From positions 1 to 5,158 of the forward strand of contig QMLZ01000230.1 in the NCBI GenBank assembly GCA_003646995.1: a DNA stretch of 5,158 nucleotides, in the 5' to 3' direction. The notes beneath the pieces were generated by a model. The model saw only the letters and a program-made list of their open reading frames with translations. It was not told where the DNA came from and searched no databases. This document shows, piece by piece, positions 273-5,158 of the stretch. Source of the DNA: Deltaproteobacteria bacterium (GTDB taxonomy: Bacteria; Desulfobacterota; DSM-4660; Desulfatiglandales; Desulfatiglandaceae). The translations under genes were made by a program, and so were the position numbers. Position 1 is the first letter of the stretch. Each line of letters starts with the position of its first letter.

Positions 273-1058
273 ATGCCGAGGGGAAGGAAGAGAGGGAGGA
301 GAAAAGATAACCTCGAGGTAAACGACTTCCGTCACGAGGAAGCCACGCGAAAGAACAACCTACCAGCCGGCTTGGCTTCTATATACGAGGTGCGTGAACG
401 GGGGACAACGCAGTATCAATATGATCCACACTTAGATCCGCAACTGGTTTGGGCTGGCAAGGCGGAGCATACCTCCTTTGAAGTCGACGTAGTTCCGCTG
501 CATATCCACGAGTACATCTCCCCTAAAGCCATCCTCAGAGCCGTGCGCCGACCGGAAGCCTTGCAACTTGACCTCTTCGGTGAAACACCACTTCCTGCGG
601 ACCAACAGGTAGAGTTTTACAAACACGAAGTTGGCTGGACTAACCGATTGATCTTGGGTGACTCGCTCCTGGTAATGAATTCACTCTTGGTCAAAGAAGG
701 AATGGCCGGCAAGGTGCAGATGATCTACATGGACCCGCCCTATGGCATCAAATATTCCTCAAACTTCCAGCCCCGTATCGACCGGAGGGACGTGAAGGAC
801 GAGGATGTTACTACCTGGTTCCTGTACACCGACTACGACGGCAAGACCTTCCACATCTGCCAAGCGTTCTTCCCCGGCGACAACAAAGCTTGGGAAAAGC
901 TGCAACGAGCGCTGAAAGCAACTATCCCTCCGGAAACTTTCGAGCAAATGCGTGGCGCCGTTTCTTTCCCTTTCAAACCTGGCGAGCACAAACGCATTGC
1001 CGTGAAAGTGATAGACTTCCGGGGGAATGAGGTGGTGAGGATAGTACAGGCGGAGTAG
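273..1058 (+). pseudogene. Adenine-specific DNA methyltransferase with a large internal deletion
   Basis: The 261-codon reading frame looks like both ends of a much longer (roughly 900-residue) site-specific DNA methyltransferase of a type III-like restriction-modification system. Residues 50-175 carry family signatures: YDPHLDPQLVWAGKAEH, then NRLILGDSLLVMNSLL, then motif IV DPPYGIKY (DPPY at 154-157), then RRDVKDED. From about residue 178 the text jumps to what resembles the family's extreme C-terminus (TTWFLYTDYDGKTF, AFFPGDNKAWEKL, GEHKRIAVKVID). In beta-class enzymes the AdoMet-binding FxGxG motif I lies after motif IV. It is absent here, so the product should not methylate DNA. A purine-rich stretch (262-269) lies just upstream of the ATG. 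The gene is co-directional with the downstream module, 22 nt away. The frame is intact, so a short protein may still be made. The family is recalled from memory; the deletion is inferred from missing motifs and length. Confidence 0.8.
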
Positions 1059-1080: not shown

Positions 1081-3339
1081 ATGGCAACTGGGAGAATTAA
1101 AGTATGGCTTGATCATCGAGGGTTTGGATTTATCGTCACAGAAGGCTCTCCTGATATATTCGTACATATCTCGCAGGTTAATTACAGGCCTGTGCAACCC
1201 GGGGATATTGTGACTTTTGACCTGCAATTTGACGCTCAAAGTCGCCCGCGAGCAACGAATGTGAGGAAAGTTGAGCGGGGCACTCCCCTATCAATCTGGG
1301 AGGACCTACCAGAGGTTCGAGCAAAGAAAGCACGCGAGATTTTCAGCGAAGCTCTAATTGCCCGTAACGAAAAAGATTATAAGCGCGCTCGCAAATTCTT
1401 TGAGGATGCAATCTCACTTAGTCCGGAAAAAAATTTCTTTGATGCCTATGCAGCTATGGAGAAAAATTTGGGTGATTGGGATAAAGTTCGAGAAATTTAT
1501 CGTAAGGCAAGGCAATATCATCCACACGATGTTTCAATTTTGGAAAGCCTTGCCATGGCCGAAAGAAAGGCCGGAAATCTTGAGAGGTGCATAGAAATTC
1601 TGGAGTCAGCATTAAGGGAATACCCAGAGAGAGCCTCTTTACATATAAACTTCGCTCAGGTTCTTGTGGATCAAGCAGAACATACAGGAAGCTTTGAAAT
1701 TCTTAGCGAAGCTAAGGAACACTTCACAATGGCTGATCAGCTATTCCGCGGCCGTCTCAACATAAAAGAACGCAGACATTATCATAAATTTTGGATTCTT
1801 CATCAAAGGCGCAGTCGTCTGGCTTGGCTTTTATTCCGAAATGTAGGCTTTAAGTTTGTCAAGTGGCGTGTCAACTTCCCTCCTAAGGCCAATGCTCCTT
1901 CGGATGCCTGGATACTGATGGACCCTCGCCAGAGCAAGTTTTCTCGACCCTATTCCCTTGATGGGTTGGTGCTGCTTTATTGCCACTATGCTCAGGAAAT
2001 AACTGAATCAGGGGTTCGTAGGGGCGAAGAATGCTTAAAAGAGCGCGCAGCAGAGGACCCAAATGTGAAGCCTGACTTACTCTTCATAGTTCTTCCTGAG
2101 ATTGAGCCTTTAAAACATTATCTGAGACTTTTGCTTGAAGATCCAGAAAGTCACCCCACAGTAGTGCCTATTGAGGAATCCAAAATCAACGAGATCCTTG
2201 CTGATAATAACCCTGAGGCCCTAACCCGCTATCTTGAGCAGCTGTTAAGCGAGTGGATTTTCCGGCGTGACCTTTACAAAGGTAATTTTCCTGTGTCTGG
2301 GAGACGATTTTTTGGCCGAGAGAGGGAAATTGGAATATTAAATCAGAGCATTGATGAAGGACGGTCTATGGGAATTTTTGGATTAAGAAAATCAGGCAAG
2401 ACTTCTTTACTTTACCAATTAAGACTAATCAGGAAAGGAGACATCGTCGCTTATGTTGACCCTGAGGCATCTCCGATAAGTGACTGTTCTTGGATTTGCT
2501 GGAGGACTGTTCAGGAGTGGGCACAACAAGTAAAAGCAGATACAAAATCCTTATCTTTGACAAAAGTTCAGTCAGAGGAAAAGCTTCCTGATTGGTCTAA
2601 AATATTGAAGGGCTTTTCATCAGATCTGCGAACCTTAATATCCAAGGTTTCGCCAGATGCTAAACTTATTCTCATGCTCGATGAAATTGAGAAAGTGATG
2701 CCAACGAAAGGAGAAGGGTGGGCTCATAGTTTGGAATTTTTCCGTTTCTTGAGGGGTGCCGCACAACAGTCCCAGGGAAAGCTTGTTACCATCGTGGCAG
2801 GTGCAAATCCGGCCATTTGTGAAATGGCTCAGTGGAATGGTGAAGATAATCCAGTTTTCCAATTTTTCGAGGAGATGTTCTTGCCATTACTGCCAGAAAA
2901 CGAATGTAGGGAGATGATCGTCACCCTGGGAGAAGGCATGGGGGTTGAGTGGGAAGAAGAGGCCCTGAAAATTGTGTATAGGCTGTCCGGAGGGCATCCT
3001 TTTATTACTCGACGCCTCTGCAGTGCTATCGTGAATCGGTTTTCTGAAAGACCTCTCCGCGTCACTTCGAGTATGGTTGAGAAAGCGGAGGTGGAGTTGC
3101 TCATGGAAGTTAATGAGTTGTTCAATGAGATAAAGGAGCGCCTACAGCGTGACTACCCCGATGAGTGGGAAGTTTTGGAAGCTATAGCAAGCGGTTTCTC
3201 TGTGAGTGAAATTAAGCAACTCGTTCCCACTTACTCCCGGGCGCTTCGTCATCTTGAGGGATATCAGTTGATCGAGCTGACGGAGGATCGGCCGAAATTC
3301 AAGATCTCACTCCTGGAAAAGTGGTTAGTGGAGGGATAA
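1081..3339 (+). CDS. Cold-shock domain / TPR-HAT / STAND-type ATPase multidomain protein
   Basis: This is a 752-residue soluble protein with no signal peptide or membrane segment. Residues 1-65 form a cold-shock domain with RNP1-like GFGFI (14-18) and RNP2-like DIFVHIS (25-31), a single-stranded RNA/DNA-binding fold. Residues about 83-222 hold three or four TPR repeats, partly HAT-like (GDWDKVREIYRKA; GNLERCIEILESAL). Residues about 225-400 are unassigned. The ATPase spans about 400-650: FFGRERE (410-416), Walker A GLRKSGKTS (434-442), Walker B LILMLDEIE (DE at 534-535), a sensor-like strand ending VAGANP, and SGGHPF (636-641) typical of STAND/archaeal-type NTPases. A winged helix covers about 695-752. 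It is followed after 2 nt by a related ATPase-HEPN gene, so the two probably work together. The region is lower in G+C than its flanks, which suggests transfer. I infer a nucleic-acid-sensing regulator or scaffold, possibly antiviral. I do not recognise it as a named system. Confidence 0.88.
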   Translation: MATGRIKVWLDHRGFGFIVTEGSPDIFVHISQVNYRPVQPGDIVTFDLQFDAQSRPRATNVRKVERGTPLSIWEDLPEVRAKKAREIFSEALIARNEKDYKRARKFFEDAISLSPEKNFFDAYAAMEKNLGDWDKVREIYRKARQYHPHDVSILESLAMAERKAGNLERCIEILESALREYPERASLHINFAQVLVDQAEHTGSFEILSEAKEHFTMADQLFRGRLNIKERRHYHKFWILHQRRSRLAWLLFRNVGFKFVKWRVNFPPKANAPSDAWILMDPRQSKFSRPYSLDGLVLLYCHYAQEITESGVRRGEECLKERAAEDPNVKPDLLFIVLPEIEPLKHYLRLLLEDPESHPTVVPIEESKINEILADNNPEALTRYLEQLLSEWIFRRDLYKGNFPVSGRRFFGREREIGILNQSIDEGRSMGIFGLRKSGKTSLLYQLRLIRKGDIVAYVDPEASPISDCSWICWRTVQEWAQQVKADTKSLSLTKVQSEEKLPDWSKILKGFSSDLRTLISKVSPDAKLILMLDEIEKVMPTKGEGWAHSLEFFRFLRGAAQQSQGKLVTIVAGANPAICEMAQWNGEDNPVFQFFEEMFLPLLPENECREMIVTLGEGMGVEWEEEALKIVYRLSGGHPFITRRLCSAIVNRFSERPLRVTSSMVEKAEVELLMEVNELFNEIKERLQRDYPDEWEVLEAIASGFSVSEIKQLVPTYSRALRHLEGYQLIELTEDRPKFKISLLEKWLVEG
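3330..3335 (+). promoter_or_regulatory. Ribosome binding site that fixes the start of the ATPase-HEPN gene
   Basis: GGAGGG lies 6 nt before ATG 3342 and overlaps the last codons of the upstream gene, whose TAA is 3337-3339. This strongly favours ATG 3342 over the in-frame GTG at 3321, which would put the start inside the upstream gene and upstream of this site. The arrangement implies translational coupling of the two ATPase genes. Confidence 0.85.
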
Positions 3340-3341
3340 CT

Positions 3342-4844
3342 ATGCAAAATCCATACCATTGGCTCATCGTCAATCCGGACCTGTTCTATGGGTCCGAGCG
3401 ATTGAAGATGGTCAAGGAGATCATATCCGGGATATTTAGGTGCGAATCCTTTGCTATTGTCGGTGGAAGGAGATTAGGTAAGACCACTTTACTGCGTCGG
3501 TTAGAAAAAGAGATTAGGAGAACCTGTCCAGCCCTCCTTCCGGTTTATATTGACGCGCAGGCCATGCCGGGCGCCTCCTCATCGGGAGAGGCGTTTGAAT
3601 GGATTCGGGGATGCGTCGAAAACACCATTCACGCGGACTTGACCGGTAACAATCGCCATCTGGGGGGATGGATACCAGCAGCTACAGACAAGGCCAATTG
3701 CTTAAAATTAGTGCTGCTTTTTGATGAGTTTGACTCCTTCCGCGAATACGCATGGTGCTCCACCTTCTTCAACAATTTGAGGGCTTTGATACACAATACT
3801 CCTGGAATATCCGAAAAATTGAGCGTGGTCGTGGCCGGAGCCAGAACTATGCAAACGTTGCGTGATAGTCCTGGATCTCCTTTGGCAAATGTGCTGACGT
3901 GGCGATACTTGTCCTTACTTAATGAGGCTGACACGAAACGAATGGTGCACGAACCTACAGCTGGCCGATTTTCTCCCGAAGTGGGTGAAAGAGTGTGGTC
4001 TGAAAGTGGGGGACATCCATTTATTATTCAATTTCTTATGTACCACCTGTGCGAGTGGGAGAGAGAGTTAGGGGTCGAACAAGCCTTAGAAATGGCTAAG
4101 AATAAGCTTATAGAAGAACATGACATCCTATTTAGGCAATGGTGGTTCGACCATATTGAGGAGAAGGAACGAGAAGTTTATCGAACACTGCGCAGAGGAA
4201 GAATGACCGTAGAACAAATAGCTAAAGATTTAGGCTACAAAGAGAGTATAATTCGTGAGCTTATAAAAACTCTTTTATATATTGGTCTTGTGAGAAGGGA
4301 GGAGGGACTCTATGCTATTTCAGGCGAGATATTTGACAAATGGGTGCAAGATAACGATGTCGAGAAACAGCGTGACGAAGTGAAACTTGCGCCAGCAAGT
4401 CATTCATTGCACGAGCTATTTGATGAGGTTGAGAAGGCGATAAGGGAATTTGTCACCATTCGGCTAATACAGATTAATGAATTAAAAAACCTTCCCAAAA
4501 TATTCCCAGACCAAGTCCAGAAAGCTAACGAAATCTACAGGAAGGAACGAGGCGTTGACCAGGATTGTCCTTTGGAGGAGATACTACTATTCAGTGACTT
4601 TGCATTTCCTTTCGAGATTGTGCTTAGATTTTGGAAAAGCTTCTACGGAGCATTTTCGCAAACACGCGATAAGATTTTGGGGCGTGATGTAAATAAAGCA
4701 AAGCAACGTTTCGAAGAAAGAAAGGAAGTTCTCACCGTAATAAGAAATAAGATTAGACATTCCAGATCGATTACTGATGACGAAAGAAACAAGGCCAGAG
4801 TGTTCTGTCGAGACCTGCTTCAACTCCTTCCTAACAAAGAGTGA
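3342..4844 (+). CDS. STAND/archaeal-type ATPase with C-terminal HEPN ribonuclease-like domain
   Basis: This is a 500-residue soluble protein. The ATPase core covers residues about 12-260: Walker A GGRRLGKTT (41-49, K47), Walker B LVLLFDEFD (D128, E129), a sensor-like strand LSVVVAGAR (160-168) and SGGHPF (222-227). All of these are shared with the upstream protein. A winged helix follows at about 273-335 (MTVEQIAKDLGYKESIIRELIKTL). Residues about 353-496 are a helical domain with FPFEIVLRFWKSFY and then VIRNKIRHSRS. R468-N469-x3-H473 fits the RNxxxH catalytic motif of HEPN ribonucleases, and the layout resembles Swt1/Apea-type HEPN domains. ATP-driven conformational change releasing RNase activity would be a typical abortive-infection logic. 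The start is set by a strong RBS 6 nt upstream, with a 2-nt gap to the partner gene. G+C is about 37% near the 3' end, then jumps to about 67% just past the stop. The HEPN call rests on the motif and predicted helices; RNase activity is inferred. Confidence 0.87.
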   Translation: MQNPYHWLIVNPDLFYGSERLKMVKEIISGIFRCESFAIVGGRRLGKTTLLRRLEKEIRRTCPALLPVYIDAQAMPGASSSGEAFEWIRGCVENTIHADLTGNNRHLGGWIPAATDKANCLKLVLLFDEFDSFREYAWCSTFFNNLRALIHNTPGISEKLSVVVAGARTMQTLRDSPGSPLANVLTWRYLSLLNEADTKRMVHEPTAGRFSPEVGERVWSESGGHPFIIQFLMYHLCEWERELGVEQALEMAKNKLIEEHDILFRQWWFDHIEEKEREVYRTLRRGRMTVEQIAKDLGYKESIIRELIKTLLYIGLVRREEGLYAISGEIFDKWVQDNDVEKQRDEVKLAPASHSLHELFDEVEKAIREFVTIRLIQINELKNLPKIFPDQVQKANEIYRKERGVDQDCPLEEILLFSDFAFPFEIVLRFWKSFYGAFSQTRDKILGRDVNKAKQRFEERKEVLTVIRNKIRHSRSITDDERNKARVFCRDLLQLLPNKE

Positions 4845-4853
4845 AAATAATGG

Positions 4854-5158
4854 ATGCTCGTTGATAACCCCATCATCAACTCGCCCTTTGAGGAGCCCGC
4901 TCGTTACTGGGCCTATAAAGAGGGGCAGCCGGCCCTGAAGGAAGGCAGGCGGCTGGCAGGTTATTACCTCAAGGCCCGCACACGTGGTCCACAGGCAGCT
5001 CTTTTGGAAGAGGAATTTGTCCCCCTGGAGCTGGTGAACACCATCCGCTAGCGGGTGAAAGAGTGGCGGGAAAAGAAGGGATATGCGCCCCTGGAACGGA
5101 ACCACTTTTGGGGCCAATTTCGGCTAACGTTTTGGGGACAAACCCCTCACTTGCAAGA
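4854..5158 (+). pseudogene. Helicase/restriction subunit N-terminus, interrupted by in-frame TAG (partial)
   Basis: The translation begins MLVDNPIINSPFEEPARYW and continues through EGRRLAGYYL and FVPLELVNTIR to TAG at 5049-5051. The NPIxNSPFEEPxRxW/F and EGRR signatures match my memory of the start of large DEAD/DEAH-type helicase-restriction proteins encoded beside this class of adenine methyltransferase (BPTD_3080-like or type III Res-like, around 1000 residues). The same frame resumes directly after the TAG with RVKEWREKKGY, which is what the family has after VN-IR. The stop is therefore a nonsense mutation (or a sequencing error), not the natural end. After about 5085 the resemblance fades although the frame stays open to the window end. 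There is no good RBS before ATG 4854, only 9 nt after the upstream stop, so the original 5' end may have been trimmed. None of the helicase or nuclease motifs lie in the window, so the family call is moderate. Confidence 0.68.
5106..5141 (+). repeat. Short tandem-spaced direct repeat, TTTTGGGGNCAA
   Basis: TTTTGGGGCCAA (5106-5117) recurs as TTTTGGGGACAA (5130-5141), with one mismatch and a 24-nt period. It lies where similarity to the helicase/restriction family fades. Regularly spaced short repeats of this kind occur near the ends of some insertion sequences (for example IS21-type), so this may be the edge of a mobile element continuing past the window. It could also be chance. Confidence 0.35.

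Follow-up and report, generated by a model that had tools for sequence, protein, structure and literature searches.

Two adjacent STAND ATPase genes with exchangeable putative sensor and effector ends, in a decayed type III restriction operon of a deltaproteobacterium

Introduction

What are two large, intact ATPase genes doing inside a restriction operon that has itself fallen apart, and do they work as one unit? The question is raised by a stretch of 5,158 nucleotides (nt) from contig QMLZ01000230.1 of a Deltaproteobacteria bacterium, referred to here in its full length as the window. An earlier reading, made from the letters alone, had proposed that the two genes form an undescribed defence module, in which a protein with a cold-shock domain (CSD), TPR/HAT repeats and a STAND ATPase is paired with a second STAND ATPase carrying a HEPN domain. 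In Avs (antiviral STAND) systems, which are single large proteins with an N-terminal effector, a STAND ATPase couples sensing to an effector. Our analysis indicates that the pair is a real two-gene module found across phyla, that its function is probably immune, and that the outline of such a module had been predicted before. All coordinates given for the window are positions in the whole 5,158-nt stretch, in which the pair and the remnants of its neighbours lie on the forward strand.

Results

Gene 1 (1081..3339) encodes a sensor-type protein of 752 residues, ordered as CSD, TPR repeats, alpha/beta linker and STAND ATPase, and gene 2 (3342..4844) encodes 500 residues from its ATG, ordered as STAND ATPase, winged helix and predicted HEPN effector. 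Both open frames lie where the sequence-only reading had placed them, with 2 nt between the gene 1 stop (3337-3339) and the gene 2 ATG at 3342. The overlapping translation signals that it had described were also recovered: by eye, a GGAGGG stretch resembling a ribosome-binding site for gene 2 (3330..3335) sits within the end of gene 1, and an alternative GTG at 3321 would start gene 2 in overlap with gene 1. The ATG at 3342 is the likely start, because 18 rows of alignment A1 share an NP(Y/F) beginning.

The pairing of the two genes was followed across genomes in a scan that used two conserved stretches of gene 1 as its only query, gene 2 being left unused, and that yielded 69 loci. Loci in which the best frame for gene 1 reaches at least 450 bits form the core set, 22 in all (L001-L021 and L029); the next locus scores 338. 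In 22/22 core loci, gene 1 is directly followed by a gene 2 homologue, each protein with a STAND module, and the gap between the genes ranges from -101 to +9 nt, counted from the first start codon; L008 and L010 are among the core loci cut by contig ends. Co-occurrence, which a two-gene module implies, was thus seen at every strong gene 1 locus, the exception being L044, where gene 1 is split. Moreover, pairwise distances between the gene 1 ATPases and between the gene 2 ATPases are correlated (r 0.83, n=21), a value reached in 0/2000 permutations; this correlation and the trees leave out L017 and L029, in which gene 2 is truncated.

By record taxonomy, the core loci belong to eight phyla (Armatimonadota, Chloroflexota, Cyanobacteriota, Pseudomonadota, Planctomycetota, Acidobacteriota, Verrucomicrobiota and Thermodesulfobacteriota), and supported clades of the trees cross phyla. 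A full-length strong gene 1 is present in 2/301 Chloroflexota genomes, both already in the set as L003 and L012; one further genome (G457) gave an ATPase-only match of 207 bits, and the remaining matches listed, with 242 genomes tallied, are short CSD, TPR or ATPase pieces. Among 251 Armatimonadota genomes, gene 2 was matched at 1e-20 in five, and the two strong ones are L001 and L002. The two-gene family is rare and spread across phyla. Plasmids gave distant matches only (gene 1 in 22 records, gene 2 in 2), as did phages (2 records, gene 1 residues 1-105). Viral contigs searched with gene 2 showed no relative, and a search of viral contigs with gene 1 returned 5 loci, one with a complete pair. 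This pair (L155, 357-4413) lies on a predicted viral contig from IMG/VR, and its tail looks by eye like pP_pnuc_1.

The first protein opens with the CSD that had been claimed for it (residues 3-63; 1087..1269), matched by Pfam CSD at E 1.2e-10 and 41.5 bits, above the cut-off of 27, and by cold-shock proteins in the PDB at the sequence level. By eye, this domain holds the stretches RGFGFI and IFVHIS, which we take to be RNP1-like and RNP2-like, respectively. It is followed by TPR-like helical repeats (residues about 77-254; 1309..1842), recognised by Pfam TPR and helical in the structure model; the TPR half of the earlier "TPR/HAT" description was borne out, and the HAT matches are weaker than those of plain TPR. 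An alpha/beta linker domain (residues about 258-392; 1852..2256), with the strand order b-b-b-a-b-a-b in the model, then leads to a STAND ATPase with winged helix (residues about 402-751; 2284..3333). The ATPase is matched by Pfam nSTAND1 (E 6e-8, 33.1 bits, cut-off 27.1) and has a Walker A GLRKSGKTS (2380..2406) and a Walker B region LILMLDEIE (2665..2691).

The linker between TPR and ATPase recurs throughout the family. It matched nothing in the PDB by sequence at E<=1, and in alignment A9 (17 rows, leaving out L004, L010, L016, L018, L017 and L029) invariance is confined to one P within the domain and to RDL at the ATPase border. A degenerate PD-(D/E)XK-like fold, suggested by the strand order, was considered and not adopted, as no candidate catalytic residues are invariant.

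The second protein also starts with an ATPase, matched by Pfam AAA_22 (E 5.1e-6, 27.3 bits, cut-off 27), with a Walker A GGRRLGKTT (3462..3488), a Walker B region LVLLFDEFD (3705..3734) and a winged helix (4155..4361) indicated by the model and by a TrmB-like match below cut-off. Across the window and 20 of the 22 core loci (L017 and L029, with truncated gene 2, left out), the Walker A pattern GxxxxGK[TS] is retained in 21/21 gene 1 and 20/21 gene 2 proteins. In fold searches, both ATPase modules resemble the archaeal ATPase 2qen, CED-4 and plant NLRs, that is, the ATPases of apoptosomes and resistosomes. Both modules thus have the make-up of STAND proteins, with a winged helix coming after a P-loop ATPase that has Walker A and B, and both are similar to NLRs and CED-4.

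Does the second protein end in a HEPN domain, as had been read from its RNxxxH motif? The call for this region (residues 356-495; 4407..4826) needed proof, because the window protein itself has no Pfam HEPN match at E<=1. Also on the negative side, a PDB sequence search with the region found no solved HEPN structure, its single match being a ribosomal protein at chance level (E 0.13). The fold lists for gene 2 are filled by its ATPase part; they show ATPases and no HEPN, and carry no information on this region. The HEPN fold predicted for the window protein rests on profile comparison and on the structure model. With hhalign, a profile of the gene 2 C-terminus (25 rows, leaving out P0020 and L020) matched a profile of 19 HEPN_Swt1 domains with a probability of 93.3 (E 2.6e-7 for one pairwise comparison) and with the RN..H motifs aligned; the probability falls to 77.8 with only the 18 close rows. 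Control profiles compared with HEPN_Swt1 reached 0.2 (ATPase), 1.3 (TPR) and 0.2 (linker). The HEPN_Swt1 profile was drawn from 25 Chloroflexota loci, of which 19 were used and 6, without a match 1,500 bases from each end, were dropped.

The catalytic-type motif itself, RNKIRH (R468-N469...H473; 4743..4760), has the form Rx4H. Its R468, N469 and H473 are invariant in 18/18 rows of alignment A1 and 10/10 rows of alignment A8, the window being in both, and belong to the columns with at least 90% conservation in 27 more diverse rows. Direct Pfam HEPN_Swt1 matches were obtained in four relatives (L003, L005, L007 and L010), all under the cut-off of 27.5, the best being that of L010 at 27.1 bits (E 5.3e-6). 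The AlphaFold2 model of gene 2 has a mean pLDDT of 91.0 and a pTM of 0.78, and its C-terminal region is all-helical. A HEPN-family domain is the best explanation of the relatives' Pfam matches and the profile comparison, in agreement with the earlier call; the domain is probably a Swt1-like HEPN, and probably an active one.

The tail of gene 2 is not the same in all loci. HEPN tails are found in 11/22 core loci, intact in L001-L007, L010 and L015, apparently frame-shifted in L020 and truncated in L021. Tails resembling pP_pnuc_1, a family described in Pfam only as a predicted nuclease, occur in 6/22 (L009 and L014 by Pfam; L008, L011, L012 and L019 by blastp similarity). The remaining core loci have a Schlafen/AlbA_2 (SLFN_AlbA_2) tail (L018), a protein kinase (L016), an undefined tail (L013) or a truncated gene 2 (L017 and L029). 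Outside the core, TIR is found in L059 and CHAT in P0022. By the tree of gene 1, this Schlafen locus, L018, falls in a fully supported clade that otherwise carries pP_pnuc_1, and thus the effector has been exchanged on a related ATPase. The front end of gene 1 varies too: by precomputed Pfam annotation of 74 relatives, including the window, CSD is present in 22, HTH_17 in 13 and RRM in 1, the others having none of these, and L003 carries HTH_17 and CSD together. Such swapping of both ends around a constant ATPase pair would be typical of bacterial conflict systems.

A few single loci may be added. The pP_pnuc_1-like tails of L009, L011, L012, L014 and L019 have in common an LTHT(T/S) stretch near their end, which the shorter L008 lacks. 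The distant pair with the TIR effector (L059, 269-3984) comes from a metagenome-assembled genome labelled Klebsiella pneumoniae. Two single-gene relatives have the same ATPase type fused to a weak HEPN_Swt1 match (L024, 9959-12001; 18.8 bits, below cut-off) and to a protein kinase (L028, 9572-12028; E 6.9e-30), and these are the logic of the pair in one protein. A distant STAND relative (L034, 9422-11311) has an IF2_N front domain, and its overlapping downstream gene has no Pfam match at E<=0.05.

The pair is flanked in the window by what is left of a type III restriction-modification system. Upstream lies a methyltransferase (mod) remnant with a large in-frame internal deletion (273..1058; PADLOC MTase_III, E 2.6e-44); it matches residues 1-113 and 808-892 of the 899-residue mod frame of L001 at 88% and 76%, respectively, and is an open frame whose middle, some 694 codons corresponding roughly to L001 residues 114-807, is gone. 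Downstream lies the start of a restriction gene (res) with an in-frame stop (4854..5051; 76% identity to the L001 res start over 89 columns). In L001 itself (bacterium HR15, 3-12308), where the contig start cuts into mod, this gene is followed by gene 1, gene 2, a res-like gene of 929 residues with a weak REase_III match (E 4.8e-8) and DNA polymerase I. The window shares the order mod-gene 1-gene 2-res with mod and res broken and the pair intact, so the decayed restriction-modification surroundings of the earlier reading are real. Between the window and L001, identity is 76-88% over the compared pieces of mod and res, 66% for gene 1 and 56% for gene 2; the pair has therefore diverged more than the restriction genes. 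In the window, the STAND pair has outlived its restriction genes. A PADLOC RTasPolA match beside L001 was set aside as, by its sequence, the housekeeping gene for DNA polymerase I. At the left edge of the window, positions 1-189 hold the tail of a hydrophobic, membrane-protein-like open frame, and Rfam gave no match at gathering scores over the whole window.

Neither protein has a strong full-length match to a known defence system in PADLOC, the matches being partial: gene 1 to CSD_V (E 2.4e-7) and, weakly and in its TPR part only, to Csx1 models (best E 0.00036); gene 2 to CasR in its winged-helix part (E 7.8e-8); and the winged-helix parts of the proteins to CARF3 models (best E 0.00022). 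No model named Avs is among the PADLOC matches of either protein at E<=1; the Avs structures 8dgc and 9jap do appear in the fold lists.

Discussion

Domain content, intact nucleotide-binding and HEPN motifs, adjacency, correlated divergence and the swapping of ends were all computed here. We rather favour the view that the pair is a two-component, NTP-driven immune switch of the abortive-infection kind, and we infer for it a nucleic-acid ligand, a hetero-oligomer, an RNase activity and a role in defence. Protein 1 would be the sensor, its CSD or the domain that replaces it binding single-stranded nucleic acid that is derived from an invader or exposed by stress. The TPR repeats and the alpha/beta linker would pass this binding on to the STAND ATPase of protein 1, which, once activated, would join the related ATPase of protein 2 in a hetero-oligomer that depends on ATP. 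This might bring the HEPN domains of protein 2 together, and the dimerised HEPN would cut RNA, so that growth of the infected cell stops. The HEPN RNases of type III CRISPR systems, Csm6 and Csx1, are likewise held in check until a signal comes; unlike these, activation here would be by STAND ATPases. The structures of the CED-4 apoptosome and of NLR resistosomes contain one ATPase type per ring, and their sensors and effectors differ from those found here.

Several observations weigh against this view. L004 has its gene 1 broken into two frames, and the gene 2 protein of L011 is the one without the Walker A pattern. Among the 47 non-core loci, 8 have a separate gene-2-like open frame (L033, L048, L052, L053, L054, L059, L063 and L064) and 39 have no gene 2 match at E 1e-5, these being, apart from L044, more distant ATPases. 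L044 (9497-11289), whose gene 1 occupies two separate frames (337 and 268 bits) and which has no gene 2 downstream, is a counter-example to strict pairing in a decaying locus, either decayed itself or of a different arrangement. The neighbourhood has two sides. Defence-type genes lie near several loci, namely a type I restriction gene (L014), a type IIG enzyme with NsnB (L029) and a DpdE/ZorD-like helicase (L018), besides the restriction-modification genes described above. On the other side, L001 borders the housekeeping gene DNA polymerase I, and control genes match PADLOC as well: at 1e-20, 58 families were matched in 137 flank genes (of 214 selected open frames within 5 kb of core loci, nearest first) and 45 in 119 control genes (from 19/20 regions of these genomes; L087 gave none), with 25 families listed in each case. 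Among the 25/45 control families listed, most are two-member kinase-like models, together with AbiLi and a Cas12 model. Ten further flank genes were looked at singly, and 8/10 had no PADLOC match at 1e-20. A neighbourhood dominated by housekeeping genes, which would have told against the sequence-only reading, is thus weakly disfavoured, and the enrichment of defence genes is qualitative and suggestive only.

How new is such a module? Passages of Kaur et al. 2021 (PMC8195603; eLife 10:e70394, Fig. 6C legend) predict an operon of two genes, mobile and encoding a STAND (nSTAND2) in each protein, with a conserved arginine finger in both; one nSTAND2 is described as inactive and carries effectors that vary, GT4 and HEPN being the commonest. 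The present pair might be a divergent branch of this predicted counter-invader system, among whose known effectors is HEPN, and such an origin would be compatible with the switch mechanism; we regard this as a serious possibility, if not the one that we would expect. The plan is the same, as both are predicted from genomes and have two adjacent STAND genes with a variable effector on one of them, HEPN being among the commonest. The pair family also straddles the Pfam nSTAND2 (PF20702) cut-off of 24 bits. It is passed in 2/20 genomes with the pair family, and the gene 2 protein of L015 reaches 27.2 bits; the three matches from the search of these genomes lie, by coordinates, in L015, L013 and L011 themselves. 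The window proteins do not reach it, gene 1 having 17.1 bits and gene 2 no match at E<=1. At 5/6 loci around nSTAND2 matches (L149 and L151-L154, not L150), at least two neighbouring frames have a P-loop pattern or a profile match, with weak similarity to the profiles of the pair (A1, E 8e-21 to 2.7e-6; A3, E 1.2e-14 and weaker). It is therefore probable, on these sequence comparisons, that the pair family and nSTAND2 are sister families, with no sharp border between them. The effector-bearing STAND of the published system is inactive, whereas both STANDs here keep their nucleotide-binding motif, as seen for gene 2 in 20/21 proteins. Further differences are that the effector here is at the C-terminus of the downstream ATPase, that the first protein carries CSD, HTH_17 or RRM together with TPR, and that GT4 was not identified in the 22 core loci, of which three have undefined or truncated tails.

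Other parts of the design have also been anticipated. Table 1 of Anantharaman et al. 2013 (PMC3710099; Biol Direct 8:15) lists Swt1-like HEPN domains fused to STAND ATPase, TPR and S1, so that the same HEPN subfamily is joined to STAND, TPR and an RNA-binding domain of the OB fold; these are listed there as fusions, whereas here the parts are split over two co-diverging proteins. Passages of Kaur et al. 2020 (PMC7159879) name cold-shock domains in other predicted systems, as one type of RNA-binding domain found there. Passages of the DefensePredictor paper of 2026 (PMC13092281) report HEPN systems and do not describe the pair. In the literature searched (titles, abstract openings and passages of four papers), no description was found of the exact family, in which a CSD/HTH-TPR-STAND protein is joined by an active STAND-effector protein. 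Within that literature, the word "undescribed" in the sequence-only reading holds for the exact pairing and not for the general design, which was already predicted (PMC8195603, PMC3710099).

Outside immunity, the pair could be a stress-response or translation-control module, in which the CSD would detect cold or damage to RNA and HEPN would trim the RNA of the cell. CSD and HEPN domains both act on nucleic acids, and L001 borders a housekeeping gene. In this family, front and back ends are swapped for unrelated ones, and its rarity (gene 1 in 2/301 Chloroflexota genomes, strong gene 2 in 2/251 Armatimonadota genomes) fits conflict systems better than housekeeping, and we thus judge such a module improbable. 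More improbable still is an accessory or regulatory module of the surrounding type III restriction system, since the mod-gene 1-gene 2-res order that suggests it comes from L001 and the window, two loci that are 76-88% identical in mod and res and therefore not independent, while the MTase_III model of L001 is matched by 1/137 core flank genes, L001's own, and the window has mod and res broken and the pair open. A toxin-antitoxin pairing was dropped by inference, both proteins being large ATPases and both ends being exchanged.

Returning to the immune switch, a bolder form of it can be put forward, tentatively and with some doubt: the family might consist of unnamed cross-phylum hetero-apoptosomes, in which two ATP-binding STANDs with an exchangeable nucleic-acid sensor and killing domain act only together, some of them placed in a type III restriction operon as a second line, firing when restriction fails. 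If the switch reading is right, the pair would be a compact natural immune switch that is split into a sensor and an effector ATPase with interchangeable ends, and would link nucleic-acid sensing of the cold-shock type to a HEPN RNase. It would make the passage of a signal between two different STAND ATPases, as in NLR-like immunity, directly testable, and its two-gene signature might be used to find further effectors.

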